Shown: piece after piece, positions 3,091 to 10,835 of the stretch
Layout of the letters: every line of letters begins with the position of its first letter
How positions within the stretch are numbered: the stretch's first letter is position 1
Assembly (NCBI GenBank): GCA_014382295.1
Contig: JACNJZ010000155.1
Span: 1 to 36,635, forward strand
Source of the DNA: Candidatus Desulfobia pelagia
GTDB taxonomy: Bacteria; Desulfobacterota; Desulfobulbia; Desulfobulbales; SURF-16
DNA: 36,635 nt
Direction of reading: 5' to 3'
Program-made: the position numbers and the translations under genes
Notes under the pieces: model-generated
The model's input: only the letters and a program-made list of their open reading frames with translations
Database searches by the model: none
Told to the model about the DNA's origin: nothing

Positions 3091-4341
3091 ATGGAAAACG
3101 AGAAAAATTCAGCTCCGAGCAGCACTATTTTTATCGCCAGGCAGCCCATTTTCCGGTCGAATCTACAAGTGTATGGTTATGAGCTCCTTTTCCGGTCAGG
3201 TCTCTCCAGCTTTTTTGATCCCTCATTCGGTGGCGATCAGGCAACTTCTCACGTCATTACCAATTCATTTTTACTGATTGGCATCGATAAGATGACCGAG
3301 CAGAAAAAGGCATTTATCAATTTCACCGAAGATATGCTTCTTCGGGAATATCCCCTTTTATTTCCTAATAAATATACCGTTGTTGAGGTCCTTGAAGACA
3401 TAAAGGTTACCCCGGAAATAATCGCGGCATGTCGCACTCTGGTGAAAAAAGGATATACACTGGCACTGGATGATTTCGAATACAGCCCGGAAATGGACCC
3501 CCTTCTTGAAATTGCCGATATTGTCAAATTTGATGTTCTGGCAATGTCCATGGAGGATCTGCAGAAAGAGGTCGAGATTGTTTCCAGATATGATGTCAAG
3601 ATGCTGGCAGAAAAGGTTGAGACCAACGAGCAGTTTGAAAAAACCAGGGAAATGGGTTTTTCTCTTTTTCAGGGGTATTTCTTCAGTAAGCCGAATATTC
3701 TCCAGGGCAAGGATATTGCGGGGTCTCAGCTGCAGTATCTTCAGGTTCTGAAAATGATCCAGGATGATAATTATGATTTTGACAAGATAGCCGACCTTGT
3801 CTCCCAGGATGTTTCCCTGGCCTATAAACTTCTGAAATATGTCAATTCAGCAGGCATGCAGCGGCGGGTGGAGATCAAATCACTGCAGAGCGCAGTGGCA
3901 ATGGTGGGTGAGGTGACTCTTCGTAAATGGCTGGGCTTGATTATGCTCTCCTATCTGGCTGAAAATAAACCGGAAGAGCTTTTGCGTCTGTCAATCCAGA
4001 GGGCGGCATTCTGTGAGCAGGTCGGTGCTCAGATAGCGGATCTTGATTTCAAGCGGAGCTGCTATACCGTCGGCATGTTCTCCTTGCTTGATGTGTTGCT
4101 GGATCAGCCCATGGAGACAATCCTCAAGGAGATAAATCTCAGTGAGGATATAACGGATACTCTTCTCGGCATGCCGACAGGGCCCCTGGGGAATGTGCTC
4201 CTTCTTGCCAAGGCATATGAGCGCGGGGCCTGGAAATGGGTTGCTCGCGTATCAGAAGCGCTCAACGTGAATAAAGACTATCTTCCTCTTTATTTTGAAA
4301 ATGCACTGGATAAGGTAAGCGAGTTCTACCTGGCCTCCTGA
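3091..4341 (+). CDS. EAL-HDOD (YuxH-like) signalling protein
   Basis: FIARQPIFRSNLQVYGYELLFRSG start, LALDDFEYSPE, LAEKVE, FQGYFFSKP, followed by an HDOD region (VSLAYKLLKYVNSAG). Confidence 0.9.
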   Translation: MENEKNSAPSSTIFIARQPIFRSNLQVYGYELLFRSGLSSFFDPSFGGDQATSHVITNSFLLIGIDKMTEQKKAFINFTEDMLLREYPLLFPNKYTVVEVLEDIKVTPEIIAACRTLVKKGYTLALDDFEYSPEMDPLLEIADIVKFDVLAMSMEDLQKEVEIVSRYDVKMLAEKVETNEQFEKTREMGFSLFQGYFFSKPNILQGKDIAGSQLQYLQVLKMIQDDNYDFDKIADLVSQDVSLAYKLLKYVNSAGMQRRVEIKSLQSAVAMVGEVTLRKWLGLIMLSYLAENKPEELLRLSIQRAAFCEQVGAQIADLDFKRSCYTVGMFSLLDVLLDQPMETILKEINLSEDITDTLLGMPTGPLGNVLLLAKAYERGAWKWVARVSEALNVNKDYLPLYFENALDKVSEFYLAS

Positions 4342-6410
4342 TCTGCTCCATGCATTTTTGAAAAATCTCCCACCTGCAGGAAAAGGCGTGCTATGGCTCT
4401 TAAGAGAGACAAGCGGTTCTGCCTGATGTCACTGTTTTCAGCCATGACCATTACATCGTCAAAAAAAGAGTCAATGGGCTCTTTCATTTCCAGTATCTGG
4501 ACGAGCGCCTTTTCATAGTGTTGCGCATCCACCAGAGGTCGTACTTTTCCTGAAACATCCCCAAAGGCTTCAAAAAGTTTTTTCTCGGCAGGTTCCGAAA
4601 GCAGTGCCTGGTCGACAGTATCTTCCTGGTGGTCTTTGATGATGTTGTTAACCCGCTTGAAGGAGCCTGCCAGTAAAGTGAATGTTGTCCTGGAGCTGAT
4701 GGCTCGAAGGGCATCAATGCGCATGCGGCAGTCAACTATATCGTTGAATGAAACAGATGTGACTGCTTCCACAGCTTCAGCCGGGATTCCCTGGGCGGTG
4801 AGGTCGTTGAGGTATCTTCCTTTTATAAAATCAAGAATAGCGTCACGGGTTTGCTCTTTTCCCTGTGTCAGTTTGTCTCCATAGAGGTTTACTGCTTCTT
4901 CGATGCACTCTGTCAGGGGGAGCCGCAGTGAATGTCCGGAGATAATATTGATGAGAGCCAGGGTGTGGCGCCGTAAACCGTATGGGTCTGTCGTGCCTGT
5001 CGGTTTCTGTCCGATGCCAAAGCAGCCGGCCAGGGTGTCAAGCCTGTCTGCCAGACTGACAAGGGCTCCGGCAAGGGTTTTCGGCACGGTGCTGCCTGCT
5101 CTCAGAGGGAGGTAGTGCTCCTGGATTGCCGTGGCCACTGACGGGTCTTCTCCTTCAGCCAGGGCATAGTATTGACCCATAACTCCCTGCAGAGAAGGAA
5201 ATTCTCCAACCATATCTGTGACAAGATCTGCCTTGGCCAGTCTGGCCGCCCGCGATACAGTCATGCTCAGCGTTTCATCTGTCAGGCCGGCCAGGAAGGC
5301 AGCCAGTTTTTCTGTCCGGGCTGTTTTTTCGAGCATGGTTCCCAGTTTGGCTTGAAAGATAACACCTGAGAGTGTCTGCAGCCTTTCTTCAAGGCTGTGC
5401 TGGCGGTCTTCCCTGAAGAAGAAGAGGGCGTCCTCCAGTCGGGCGCGGAGAACTCTTTCATGGCCTGCCGCCGCAAGATGTGTATCAGCTATCCTGGTGT
5501 TGTTTGCGGCAACAAAATGAGCCATCAGATTGCCTTCCTTGTCGGCAATCGTAAAATATTTTTGATGCACACGCATGGAGGTTATAAGGACTTCACGGGG
5601 CAGTTCCAGGAATTTCGGGTCAAAGGAGCCGCACACGCCAATAGGGATCTCAATAAGGTTGGTTACGGTATCAAGAAGTTCAGGGTCAGGAACAATTGTC
5701 CCACCTACACTGGCTGCGGCAGCATTAATTTCATCTTCTACCATTTTGCGGCGCTCATCTATGTTCACAATAACATTTTTTTCGCGAAGGATGCTGATGT
5801 ACTGGCTGAAATCGGTAACGTCTGACTCGCCCTGATCCATGAAGCGATGGCCCCGTGTTGAGCGGCCGGAATGAAGATCGTTGTATTTTACCGGAACGAT
5901 TTCTCCTCCGAACAGTGCCGTCATCCACTGGATTGGACGTGCAAAGGTTGAGCGGTTTGTTCCCCATCGCATTGATTTGGGAAAGGGGATAGACTGGATA
6001 AATTCAGGGATATACAGAGTAAGAAGCTCCGCAGTGGATTTCCCCTTCAGCTCCTGGACAAGCATCAGGTACTCACCTTTTGGGGTGGTTTCAATTTTCA
6101 GCTGGTCGACAGTCACTCCCCGTGATGCAGCAAAACCAATGGCCGCTTTGGTTGGTTGGTTTTCGGCATCATAGGCAGCCTTTTTGGGAGGACCAAGGAC
6201 TTTTTCCATACGGTCCGGCTGTCTGGTTATCAGCTCGGTAACACATAACGCAAGTCGGCGCGGGGTGGCGACGGTTCTCATTTCTCCGTAGGAAAGTGAG
6301 AGTTCGGTCAGTTTTTTTGCCATTGCTTCCTTCATAAATGAAAGAGCTGGAGCAATATACCCCGCAGGGATCTCTTCTGTGCCTATTTCAAGTAGCAATT
6401 CCTGGTGCAT
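4326..6410 (-). CDS. glyS: Glycine--tRNA ligase beta subunit
   Basis: 694 aa; MHQELLLEIGTEEIPAGYIAPAL, FPKSMRWG, GVCGSFDPKFLELPREVLITSMRVHQKYF, DPYGLRRHTLALINI. Confidence 0.97.
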   Translation of the reverse strand: MHQELLLEIGTEEIPAGYIAPALSFMKEAMAKKLTELSLSYGEMRTVATPRRLALCVTELITRQPDRMEKVLGPPKKAAYDAENQPTKAAIGFAASRGVTVDQLKIETTPKGEYLMLVQELKGKSTAELLTLYIPEFIQSIPFPKSMRWGTNRSTFARPIQWMTALFGGEIVPVKYNDLHSGRSTRGHRFMDQGESDVTDFSQYISILREKNVIVNIDERRKMVEDEINAAAASVGGTIVPDPELLDTVTNLIEIPIGVCGSFDPKFLELPREVLITSMRVHQKYFTIADKEGNLMAHFVAANNTRIADTHLAAAGHERVLRARLEDALFFFREDRQHSLEERLQTLSGVIFQAKLGTMLEKTARTEKLAAFLAGLTDETLSMTVSRAARLAKADLVTDMVGEFPSLQGVMGQYYALAEGEDPSVATAIQEHYLPLRAGSTVPKTLAGALVSLADRLDTLAGCFGIGQKPTGTTDPYGLRRHTLALINIISGHSLRLPLTECIEEAVNLYGDKLTQGKEQTRDAILDFIKGRYLNDLTAQGIPAEAVEAVTSVSFNDIVDCRMRIDALRAISSRTTFTLLAGSFKRVNNIIKDHQEDTVDQALLSEPAEKKLFEAFGDVSGKVRPLVDAQHYEKALVQILEMKEPIDSFFDDVMVMAENSDIRQNRLSLLRAIARLFLQVGDFSKMHGADQEAR

Positions 6411-6455: not shown

Positions 6456-7211
6456 CTATTGCGGCGGTGTATAATTTTCCGGCCACTCGAGTGATGCAAA
6501 TGTACTGAAGCCTTTGGCGAAATTTTCTACATTTACAGAAAACCAGCTTATGTCGGTAAGATTGGTGATTGTGTTGCCGATAGCGTTGGCAATTCCTTCC
6601 ACAGAGAGGGAGTTGTCCTGGGGTTTTGCCAGGGCCGAGGACCATTGAAGGTCATGATTTGTAATCTCTTCAACCATGGAAATAATATCTTCTATCCAGA
6701 TAAAATGCTGGAAGCGAAGACTGGTAGTTACGACTCCCCAGAGCCCTAGGGATTCGGGAAGACCCGATCCTGTCTGGACAGGGGCGGGTGGCGCAACCGG
6801 GACCTCTATCTCCAGGATCAGGTCGTTTTCCTTTTGCAGGGAGCCATGCATTCTGCACAGGTATTCTCCCATGACAGTTCTTCCGGGACCACGCTTTTTC
6901 TTTAGAAAATAGGGGAACTCTATTTCAATATGCGCTGCTTCAGCCTGGAGTTTCTCCTTCATCTCCTCAAGGATGCGGTGAAAACTCTTCAGTTTGATTT
7001 CGCCATGAAAATCGTTGAGGATTTCCACGAAACGACTCATGTGGGTTCCCTTGAACTGGTGCGGAAGGTTGACGTACATGTTGACCTTTGCCACAGTTTT
7101 CTGGACCTTTTTGGCCCTGTCAAGAACAGTAACAGGGTAGGAGATGTCTTTTACGCCCACTTTTTTGATACTGATGCGGCGATAGTCAGGCTGACTCTGA
7201 ATATCCTTCAT
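6456..7211 (-). CDS. FolE2-family (GTP cyclohydrolase IB-like) protein, predicted non-canonical/degenerate active site
   Basis: DIQSQPDYRRISIKKVGVKDISYPVTVLDRA...VNLPHQFKGTHMSRFVEILN is the FolE2 N-terminal scaffold; the expected CPCSKxIS..GAHNQR and SIHNH motifs are absent (see findings). Confidence 0.82.
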   Translation of the reverse strand: MKDIQSQPDYRRISIKKVGVKDISYPVTVLDRAKKVQKTVAKVNMYVNLPHQFKGTHMSRFVEILNDFHGEIKLKSFHRILEEMKEKLQAEAAHIEIEFPYFLKKKRGPGRTVMGEYLCRMHGSLQKENDLILEIEVPVAPPAPVQTGSGLPESLGLWGVVTTSLRFQHFIWIEDIISMVEEITNHDLQWSSALAKPQDNSLSVEGIANAIGNTITNLTDISWFSVNVENFAKGFSTFASLEWPENYTPPQ

Positions 7212-7249: not shown

Positions 7250-7600
7250 TCAGGAAAGGTGTTTTTGGACGGCAGCTTTCAGTTCTTCAAGGTTTGCTGA
7301 TTTTACGATATATGCATCAGAGGCCCATGAGGCAAGATCCTGTTTGAACTCCTGGTAGGCTGAGCAGAGAATGATGGGTAAATTAGGATGGGTTTCTTTC
7401 ATGCGCCGCAATACATCAATTCCATTTAATCCAGGCATATTGATATCCAGGATTACCAGGTCGGGAGAGAGGATGCTGAGTTTGTCCAGGCCTTCTTCTC
7501 CTGAAAGGGCGGAGTGAACTTCATATCCCTCTTCTTCGAATTCTTCCCGGTAGAGGAGATGTATGCTTTCTTCGTCATCAACGAGCAGGATTTTTTTCAT
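7250..7600 (-). CDS. Stand-alone response regulator receiver protein
   Basis: MKKILLVDDEESIHLLYREEFEEEGYEVHSALSGEEGL...DLVILDINMPGLNGIDVLRRM; start placed at ATG 7600, inside the listed ORF. Confidence 0.93.
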   Translation of the reverse strand: MKKILLVDDEESIHLLYREEFEEEGYEVHSALSGEEGLDKLSILSPDLVILDINMPGLNGIDVLRRMKETHPNLPIILCSAYQEFKQDLASWASDAYIVKSANLEELKAAVQKHLS

Positions 7601-7626: not shown

Positions 7627-8622
7627 TTATTTCACTTCCCTGAGGAATTTTGCAGCATCTTCTGGAGGTGTCGGGTTGATATAAAAACCGGATCCCCATT
7701 CAAAACCGGCAAATTTAGTCAGTTTCGGCATGATTTCGAAATGCCAGTGATAATGCTCCATGGCTTCGGAACGAATAGGTGACGTATGCAGGACAAAGTT
7801 ATATGGAACACCGGGAATGCAGGTGTTCAGCCGCCACATGGTCTCGGAGAAAATGGCGGCCAGGGCATGAAATGATGCGTCATCCTGGGTTCGATAGGCC
7901 GATGAATGTTTTTTCGGCAGAATCCACATTTCAAATGGTGAGCGGGGAGCATACGGGGTTATCGTTATAAAGTGATCGTTCTGGCAGACGATCCGTGTGT
8001 TTTCTTTTATTTCCTGGCGAATTATGTCACAAAAAACGCAGCGCTCTTTGTATTTATAGTAGGAAAGGCTTCCCGCCAACTCGGAAACGATCATTCTCGG
8101 TAAAATTGGCAGGGCTACAATCTGAGAGTGAGAATGCTCCAGGGATGCGCCTGCTGCCCGGCCGAAATTTTTAAAGACCATGACGTATTTGAAGCGGGGG
8201 TCTTTGCTGAGGTCGTTGATTCGGTCACGAAAAGCAAAGAAGACGTTTATCATTTTTTCCGGGGGGAGTTCGCTGAACACCTCGTTGTGGTTTGGTGTCT
8301 CAATCACCACTTCATGGGCCCCGATACCGTTCATTTTGTCGTAGAGCCCTTCTCCCTCTTTGCTGAGATCGCCTTCTATGACAAGGGCTGGGAATTTGTT
8401 CGGGACGACGCGTATCTGCCATCCCGGGGAGTTGGGCGCCTGGTGAGAATCTCCAAGGCGGTGCACTTCAGGAGGGGTCGTTTTTTCATTTCCGGGACAG
8501 AGTGGGCAGAAACCGCCGATTGAAAGGCTTTCTTCCAAAATGAAGTCGGTTGGTCTCTTGCCGCGTTCCTTCGCTATAATTATCCAACGGCCAAGAATTG
8601 GGTCTTTGCGCAGTTCAGGCAT
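7627..8622 (-). CDS. galT: Galactose-1-phosphate uridylyltransferase
   Basis: MPELRKDPILGRWIIIAKERGKRPTDF, CPLCPGNE, GASLEHSHSQIVALP (HxHxQ), YHWHFEIMPKLT. Confidence 0.93.
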   Translation of the reverse strand: MPELRKDPILGRWIIIAKERGKRPTDFILEESLSIGGFCPLCPGNEKTTPPEVHRLGDSHQAPNSPGWQIRVVPNKFPALVIEGDLSKEGEGLYDKMNGIGAHEVVIETPNHNEVFSELPPEKMINVFFAFRDRINDLSKDPRFKYVMVFKNFGRAAGASLEHSHSQIVALPILPRMIVSELAGSLSYYKYKERCVFCDIIRQEIKENTRIVCQNDHFITITPYAPRSPFEMWILPKKHSSAYRTQDDASFHALAAIFSETMWRLNTCIPGVPYNFVLHTSPIRSEAMEHYHWHFEIMPKLTKFAGFEWGSGFYINPTPPEDAAKFLREVK

Positions 8623-8663: not shown

Positions 8664-9050
8664 TCAGCCGGTCTGAGCTTTTTCAAAGTCTTCCTGTTTT
8701 GTTTTGCAGTCAATGCACATTGCAGTTACCGGTCGGGCTTCAAGCCGCGCTTTTCCAATATCTTCACCGCAGGCATCACAGACGCCGTAGCTCTCCTCGT
8801 CGATGCGCTCAATGGCCTCAGTAATTTTGGAGAGAAGTTTTCTTTCCCTGTCGCGGATGCGCAGTTCAAAGTTGCGGTCTGATTCCGCTGAAGCCCGATC
8901 TGTTGGGTCAGGGAAATTTCCCCCGCCATCAGTCATTTCTGAAATGGTTTTATGTGCTTCTGAAAGGAGTTCATTTCTCATGTCCTCCAGCTTCTTTCTA
9001 AAATAGGCTAATTGTTCATCTGTCATGCGAATTTCTCCGTTTATTGCCAT
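8664..9050 (-). CDS. dksA: DksA/TraR family zinc-finger transcription factor
   Basis: DRASAESDRNFELRIRDRERKLLSKITEAIERIDEESYGVCDACGEDIGKARLEARPVTAMCIDCK. Confidence 0.92.
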   Translation of the reverse strand: MAINGEIRMTDEQLAYFRKKLEDMRNELLSEAHKTISEMTDGGGNFPDPTDRASAESDRNFELRIRDRERKLLSKITEAIERIDEESYGVCDACGEDIGKARLEARPVTAMCIDCKTKQEDFEKAQTG

Positions 9051-9210: not shown

Positions 9211-9702
9211 TTATCTATTGTCGCGGATATACTCTCCGCTTTTCCCCCCTGATTTTCTGATCAGGCGGATGTTGTTGATGGTCATGCCCTTGTCAACAGC
9301 TTTACTCATGTCGTATATGGTTAAGGCCGCGACTGAAACAGCGGTCAACGCTTCCATTTCAACGCCGGTTTTTCCTGTGATTCCAACTGTGGCAAGTATG
9401 TCTATTTTACAACGTGCCTCGTCCAAAGTAAAGTTGATATCAGCCTTAGTTATTGGCAGGGGGTGGGTAAGTGGAATCAGGGCATCAACTTTTTTTGCGG
9501 CCATGATTCCGGCAATCCTGGCTACGCCAAGGACGTCACCTTTGGATATGGACCCTGCTTTGACGAGCTCAAAGCATTCCTTTGACATACTGATCGATCC
9601 GGCCGCGGTTGCTTCTCTGGTGCTGTCATTCTTCGTGCTGACATCGACCATCCGGGCATTTCCGGAAGCGTCAAAATGGCTGAATTCGGTAGCGTCTGTC
9701 AT
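9211..9702 (-). CDS. moaC: Cyclic pyranopterin monophosphate synthase MoaC
   Basis: [76 protein letters not shown]. Confidence 0.96.
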
Positions 9703-10835
9703 TAGTTGTCCTTCGTAGAGTCATCAACTCCGAGGCCTTTCAAGAGCTTTTTGAGGAAGCTTTCATGGGGGAGGCCTTCACCTCCGGATTCGATTTCTGC
9801 GAATTCCTCCAGAAGTTCTTTCTGTCTTTTGTTGAACTTTTTGGGGACAATGACCTGTATCTCAATAACCATGTCTCCCTTGCCGTGCCCACGAAGGCTG
9901 GGAACTCCCTCTCCTTTGATTCGAAAGGTTTCTCCAGGCTGCGTTCCCTTGGGAATATTCAGGCTGCTTTTTCCGTGGATCGTTGGAACTTCAAGCTTGC
10001 ATCCTAAAGCCGCCTGGGCCATGCCGAGGGGGACCTGGCAAAAGATCAGGTCGTTTTCCCGTTGGAAAAACTCGTGGGTTTCAACATGAATGACAATATA
10101 CAGGTCGCCTGGAGGGCCTCCCTTTCTACCGCCTTCACCTTCGTTGCGAAGCCGCATTCGGGCTCCGGTATCGACACCTGCAGGAATTTTCAGGGAGACT
10201 TTTTTGCTTTTGGATAAAAGGCCTGAGCCGCTGCAGTCCTCGCAGGGATCTGTAACTATTTCACCCTGTCCCTGGCATTGGGGGCATGGAGTCCTGACGC
10301 TGAAAAAACCCTGGGTTCTCGTAACCTGTCCTGCCCCATGGCACTGTGGGCATGTCTGGCTTTTATGTCCAGGACGTATGCCGCTGCCTTCGCAGGTCCA
10401 ACAGGTGTCCCTCTTGTTTATGTCAATTTCTTTTTCGATGCCGTGAACGGCTTCCATGAAGGAAATCGTTAGGTCATACCTGAGGTCATTCCCCGGAATG
10501 GGACCTTGGCTGGGCTGGCGGCGGCCGCCGCCGAAGCCGAAAAGATCTCCAAAGATATCTCCGAAGCTTGAAAAGATATCTTCAAAGTTTCCTGGACCGC
10601 TGTATCCACTGCTTCGAAGGCCTTCGGCACCATACCGGTCATATATTTTCCGTTTTTCAAGATCTCCGAGGACTTCATAGGCTTCTGCAGCTTCTTTAAA
10701 TTTATCCTCGGCTTCTTTGTTGTCCGGATTACGGTCCGGATGGTATTTCATGGCCAGTTTGCGGTAGGCCTTTTTTATTTCATCAGCGGAAGCATTTTTG
10801 CTGACGCCGAGAGTTGTGTAGTAATCTTGTTCCAT
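9702..10835 (-). CDS. dnaJ: Chaperone DnaJ
   Basis: J-domain [32 protein letters not shown] with HPD; CxxCxGxG zinc repeats; C-terminal substrate-binding domain. Stop overlaps moaC start (TAATG). Confidence 0.97.

Follow-up and report, generated by a model that had tools for sequence, protein, structure and literature searches.

What does a FolE2 paralogue do once its metal ligands are gone? The question is raised by a gene, here called B, in a 36,635-nucleotide stretch of DNA (the window) from Candidatus Desulfobia pelagia, of the order Desulfobulbales (GenBank contig JACNJZ010000155.1). An original prediction, made from the sequence alone, described its product as a FolE2-family protein without the expected catalytic and metal-binding residues, and read it as repurposed, non-catalytic or carrying new chemistry. 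Here, we describe B, its homologues and a second FolE2 of the same genomes, called A, and conclude that B is quite likely the non-catalytic subunit of a heteromeric GTP cyclohydrolase IB whose other subunit is A, the two most likely being functional only as a pair.

As predicted, B is an intact open reading frame of 251 aa with an ATG start on the minus strand (6456-7211); the plus-strand frame across the same positions is broken by interruptions. It matches the Pfam profile GCHY-1 (PF02649, GTP cyclohydrolase IB/FolE2) with 141 bits against a cut-off of 25, covering profile positions 1-144 of 260 only, and its first 140 residues are FolE2 at the sequence level. FolE2 chains matched in the PDB are 2r5r, 8g6c and 3d2o (2r5r being the N. 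europaea enzyme, and 3d2o, like 5k95, that of N. gonorrhoeae). An AlphaFold2 model built with 29 homologues (pLDDT 78, pTM 0.75) gives a predicted fold that is a complete bimodular FolE2, and Foldseek ranks FolE2 structures first over its full length, with uricases, the other bimodular T-fold enzymes, next. The predicted fold thereby supports the FolE2 scaffold from end to end. With the NCBIfam FolE2 equivalog (NF010200), B scores 113.3 bits, under the cut-off of 215; the concern that pipelines would name B a GTP cyclohydrolase by homology is therefore plausible where Pfam is used, and does not extend to the equivalog. The N-terminal half carries both FolE2 signatures, an initial D-x-Q-x3-D-x-R segment (residues 1-13, 7173-7211, minus strand) and KGTHMSRF (residues 54-61, 7029-7052, minus strand), which is invariant in B; both are lost in the co-resident A.

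Ligand positions are numbered after N. gonorrhoeae FolE2, the alignment reference, in which we take Cys147, His159, Glu201 and His246 to be the metal ligands and Glu216 (in 'FVED') to be the purine-anchoring Glu. The ligand numbers land exactly on C, H, E and H in the retrieved sequence, and these residues occupy the four positions in 69/69 ligand-bearing FolE2 of the alignment set. (The reference record, NZ_CP119140.1, and NZ_CP119142.1 are filed in PLSDB as N. gonorrhoeae 'plasmids' of ~2.17 Mb and look like misfiled chromosomes.) All four ligands are missing from B. The segment in place of CPCSKEIS...GAHNQR (residues 141-160, 6732-6791, minus strand) holds no metal ligand, the TEKAYENP stretch that houses the ligand Glu is deleted, and His246 and His248 are both gone from the segment in place of NFESIHNHSAYA (residues 229-240, 6492-6527, minus strand). 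None of the four positions is conserved in the B family, where Cys147, His159 and His246 are kept in 0/68 homologues and 66/68 have a gap at position 201. The predicted loss of Cys, His and Glu thus holds for the four ligands and fails for the Glu of 'FVED', a C-half pocket residue that B retains as Glu205 (codon 6597-6599, minus strand) and that is Glu in 67/68. A leftover purine-binding, regulatory site in the otherwise degenerate C-terminal module is possible; QueF, also a T-fold enzyme, anchors its substrate through an invariant Glu (PMC5372742). No new invariant set of His, Cys, Asp or Glu appears at other positions in the B homologue alignment, which rules out relocated metal ligands.

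The ligand loss is common to 68 B homologues, all from Desulfobulbales, so that the clade-mates looked for in the original prediction do exist; in the tree they are monophyletic (100/100). A search for related loci recovered 53 B-type loci followed by a sharp break, past which the matches (L056-L082) are ligand-bearing FolE2 of other Deltaproteobacteria. One homologue (L003, 89% identity) reads through the equivalent of 6740-6800 in the same frame, as do ~50 others. Values of dN/dS for B lie at ~0.03-0.15 in the computable pairs and at 0-0.06 in the N half, the smallest being rough on account of synonymous saturation, and B is under purifying selection. Its fastest-evolving part is the C-terminal module, with a pairwise identity of 0.34 over 189-222. 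B is present in ~225 of 243 genomes of the order (all but 18 by table count); five of the 18 belong to one genus, g46, in two (G131 and G193) the contig stops within B, and the others are mostly assemblies 68-92% complete. A plasmid collection of 16 records gave no sign of B.

Wherever flanks are present, the order loci share a fixed gene order, dnaJ-moaC-dksA-galT-receiver-B-glyS. In the window these genes all lie on the minus strand, with dnaJ at 9702-10835, moaC at 9211-9702, a dksA/TraR-type gene at 8664-9050, galT at 7627-8622 and a single-domain response-regulator receiver at 7250-7600, upstream of B, and glyS, conserved in all order loci with flanks reaching it, at 4326-6410, downstream; B thus sits between the receiver gene and glyS, as first described. 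The stand-alone receiver (L178-L198) is strongly conserved between galT and B within the order, and outside the order it is found near galT without B.

The second FolE2 of this genome, A, is encoded on a separate contig (C12, locus L001), and its presence supports the description of B as a non-catalytic paralogue. A keeps all metal ligands together with CPCS, GAHNQR, TEKAY and ESIHxH, passes the NCBIfam equivalog (241.5 bits, cut-off 215) and, alone in view, would look like an ordinary FolE2; its predicted fold is likewise a complete bimodular FolE2 (pLDDT 89). Where FolE2 has KGTHMSRF, A reads RETCVNTF or similar, and the N-terminal D-x-Q-x3-D-x-R is missing. Both losses are common to all 24 A sequences from the order, which form a single clade (100/100). 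A has a conserved synteny of its own, purH and an S4-domain gene adjoining it in most order genomes (L001, L105-L175), and the genes for A and B are unlinked. The two paralogues are thus alike in family, order-wide distribution and conserved synteny, and differ in what they have kept.

This difference was scored against 45 one-gene FolE2 sequences, at the positions that reach an invariance of 95% or more among them. Of those in the N half, B alone retains 13 and A alone 2; of those in the C half, A alone retains 29 and B alone 1 (Fisher exact p=1.9e-8, a value that measures only the cleanness of the sorting, as positions within a clade share history). Identity to one-gene FolE2 follows the same division, at 0.58 for the N module and 0.26 for the C module of B, and at 0.34 and 0.57, respectively, for A. 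Two co-occurring paralogues have therefore undergone reciprocal loss of conserved residues.

Co-occurrence was surveyed in 243 genomes of the order with back-translated DNA patterns for KGTHMSRF, for GAHNQR and for both in one gene. KGTHMSRF was matched in 229 genomes and GAHNQR in 220, and both signatures fell inside one gene in 4, all of genus g46. There (G100, G138, G141 and G214) the locus dnaJ-moaC-dksA-galT-receiver is intact and B is missing (L199-L202); glyS is also missing from it. These genomes hold a single FolE2 with all motifs (L157-L160) and neither A nor B; it is not adjoined by purH, and it groups with FolE2 of Neisseria, Cupriavidus, Burkholderia and Priestia (99/99), and is of beta-proteobacterial type. 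Where a complete FolE2 is present, then, A and B are both gone, a pattern expected if a transferred one-gene FolE2 made the two dispensable together, and one that, coming from one genus, counts as one evolutionary event.

In a sample of the phylum, the one-gene form was found in 275/395 genomes and in 0/16 of the order members therein. Those exceptions outside the order that were inspected encode the enzyme in one gene, with conservative changes in its signatures (RGTHMSRF or GAHSQR, for example), and so are not further split systems. Two genomes outside the order, G561 (L229/L233) and G584 (L225/L234), were rejected as two-paralogue systems, because their FolE2 matches are neighbouring pieces of a single gene; the break could reflect a frameshift, a fault in the assembly or a genuine split. 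The unrelated FolE (PF01227) was found in 0/146 order genomes, with controls matched in the same search, and consequently A and B are the only GTP cyclohydrolase I found in the order outside g46. The proposed check for a second folE or folE2 returned a ligand-bearing FolE2, but not a canonical one.

FolE2 is a bimodular T-fold enzyme, and T-fold enzymes form their active sites between modules. We propose that two FolE2 copies coexisted in an ancestor of Desulfobulbales and degenerated in complementary fashion, B keeping the N-terminal module elements (D-x-Q-x3-D-x-R and KGTHMSRF) and losing the metal site, and A keeping the metal and catalytic residues of the C-terminal module and losing the N-module elements. 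In an A/B heteromer, the C module of A and the N module of B would make a functional site; the reverse pairing, of the C module of B with the N module of A, would make a dead site, free to drift, which would account for drift in the dead halves of both genes. Homomers of either protein would have no complete active site, so that A is probably inactive alone and a homomer of B is predicted to be without GTP cyclohydrolase activity. From GTP, the complex would make the dihydroneopterin triphosphate used for folate (and queuosine), and g46 would have acquired a one-gene FolE2 and dropped A and B. The physical complex, its trans active site and its enzymatic activity are what we infer from sequence and by analogy.

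The analogy is with urate oxidase, which like B has two T-fold modules per chain and in which two protomers share each active site, one half coming from each (PMC7792999). It differs in being a homotetrameric, cofactor-free oxidase with ~10% sequence identity. Together with the conservation of KGTHMSRF, it suggests that this motif would lie at the active site and be contributed in trans. FolE2 itself is the closest structural match of B, which shares with it the full-length fold, the N-module sequence, both N-half signatures and the purine-anchoring Glu; B differs in having no metal ligands, in the loss of the catalytic loop and the TEKAYENP segment, and in coexisting with a FolE2 from which the reciprocal half has been lost.

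Several observations count against the heteromer. In V. cholerae QueF, also bimodular and T-fold, the active site lies between the domains of one subunit (PMC5372742), a counter-example to a site formed in trans. The genes for A and B are not linked, some order genomes show A only or B only (mostly drafts, with a few >95% complete), and Glu205, kept in the otherwise dead C module of B, is not needed by the model.

Among other explanations, the one that fares best, though it is unlikely, is that B is a regulatory pseudoenzyme which binds A as an activator or stabiliser and gives no active-site residues. It accounts for the co-occurrence of B with A and for the absence of both in g46, and activation by a catalytically dead paralogue has a precedent in the trypanosome AdoMetDC-prozyme pair (PMC5201418), where the live paralogue needs the dead one; for A and B such dependence is only proposed. 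The prozyme relieves autoinhibition, whereas B would donate half an active site, and the losses in A and B are reciprocal. That reciprocal retention (13 positions to 2 in the N half, 29 to 1 in the C half) is left unpredicted by a purely regulatory role.

We give still less weight to a B repurposed, for instance, to sense purines or pterins together with the adjacent receiver, A acting alone with an altered N module. The receiver gene is always adjacent to B, the purine-anchoring Glu is retained and the N module of B is strongly conserved. Yet the receiver does not depend on B for its presence: g46 retains it, and genomes outside the order have it near galT, in both cases without B, which weakens a receiver-B pair as the main explanation; nor would a sensor be expected to disappear where a complete FolE2 is present, and A lacks residues that are invariant in the one-gene FolE2 examined. 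A new-chemistry T-fold enzyme independent of A is very improbable. Diverse reactions are known on the T-fold (PMC5485725) and B is under purifying selection, but its C module, the seat of FolE2 chemistry, is the part that evolves fastest, and it has gained no new invariant set of candidate catalytic residues. That B is a decaying pseudogene or a sequencing artefact, as the loss of every metal ligand might suggest, has a negligible chance given its retention across the order, a dN/dS well below 1, its fixed synteny and the in-frame homologues, which together also refute the frameshift that had been considered at 6740-6800.

Reciprocal loss and joint absence in g46, together with the finding of no further GTP cyclohydrolase I, point instead to a two-subunit GTP cyclohydrolase, and the repurposing or new chemistry of the original prediction is set aside in its favour. 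On the evolutionary course we judge it likely that across the whole order the sole GTP cyclohydrolase I has been divided between two unlinked genes, each product inactive alone and the site rebuilt in trans through complementary degeneration of paralogues, and that one genus escaped with a one-gene FolE2, dropping both.

In a literature search that reached few subscription journals, we found no paper on FolE2 in Desulfobulbales or on a FolE2 pseudoenzyme, and no earlier report of a two-gene GTP cyclohydrolase IB. If the proposal is correct, B would be a variant of a known enzyme, GTP cyclohydrolase IB, new in its two-gene form, and A and B would provide a clean example from nature of an obligate heteromer arising by complementary loss, a subfunctionalisation of one active site seen over a sample of ~240 genomes with a natural reversal. 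The pair would also reveal which FolE2 residues act in trans, already sorted by evolution into two chains. The annotation of two genes would be corrected in most Desulfobulbales genomes, A being named FolE2 though probably inactive alone and B matching FolE2 without any metal site, and the start of folate and queuosine synthesis in these sulfate reducers and cable-bacteria relatives would be explained.
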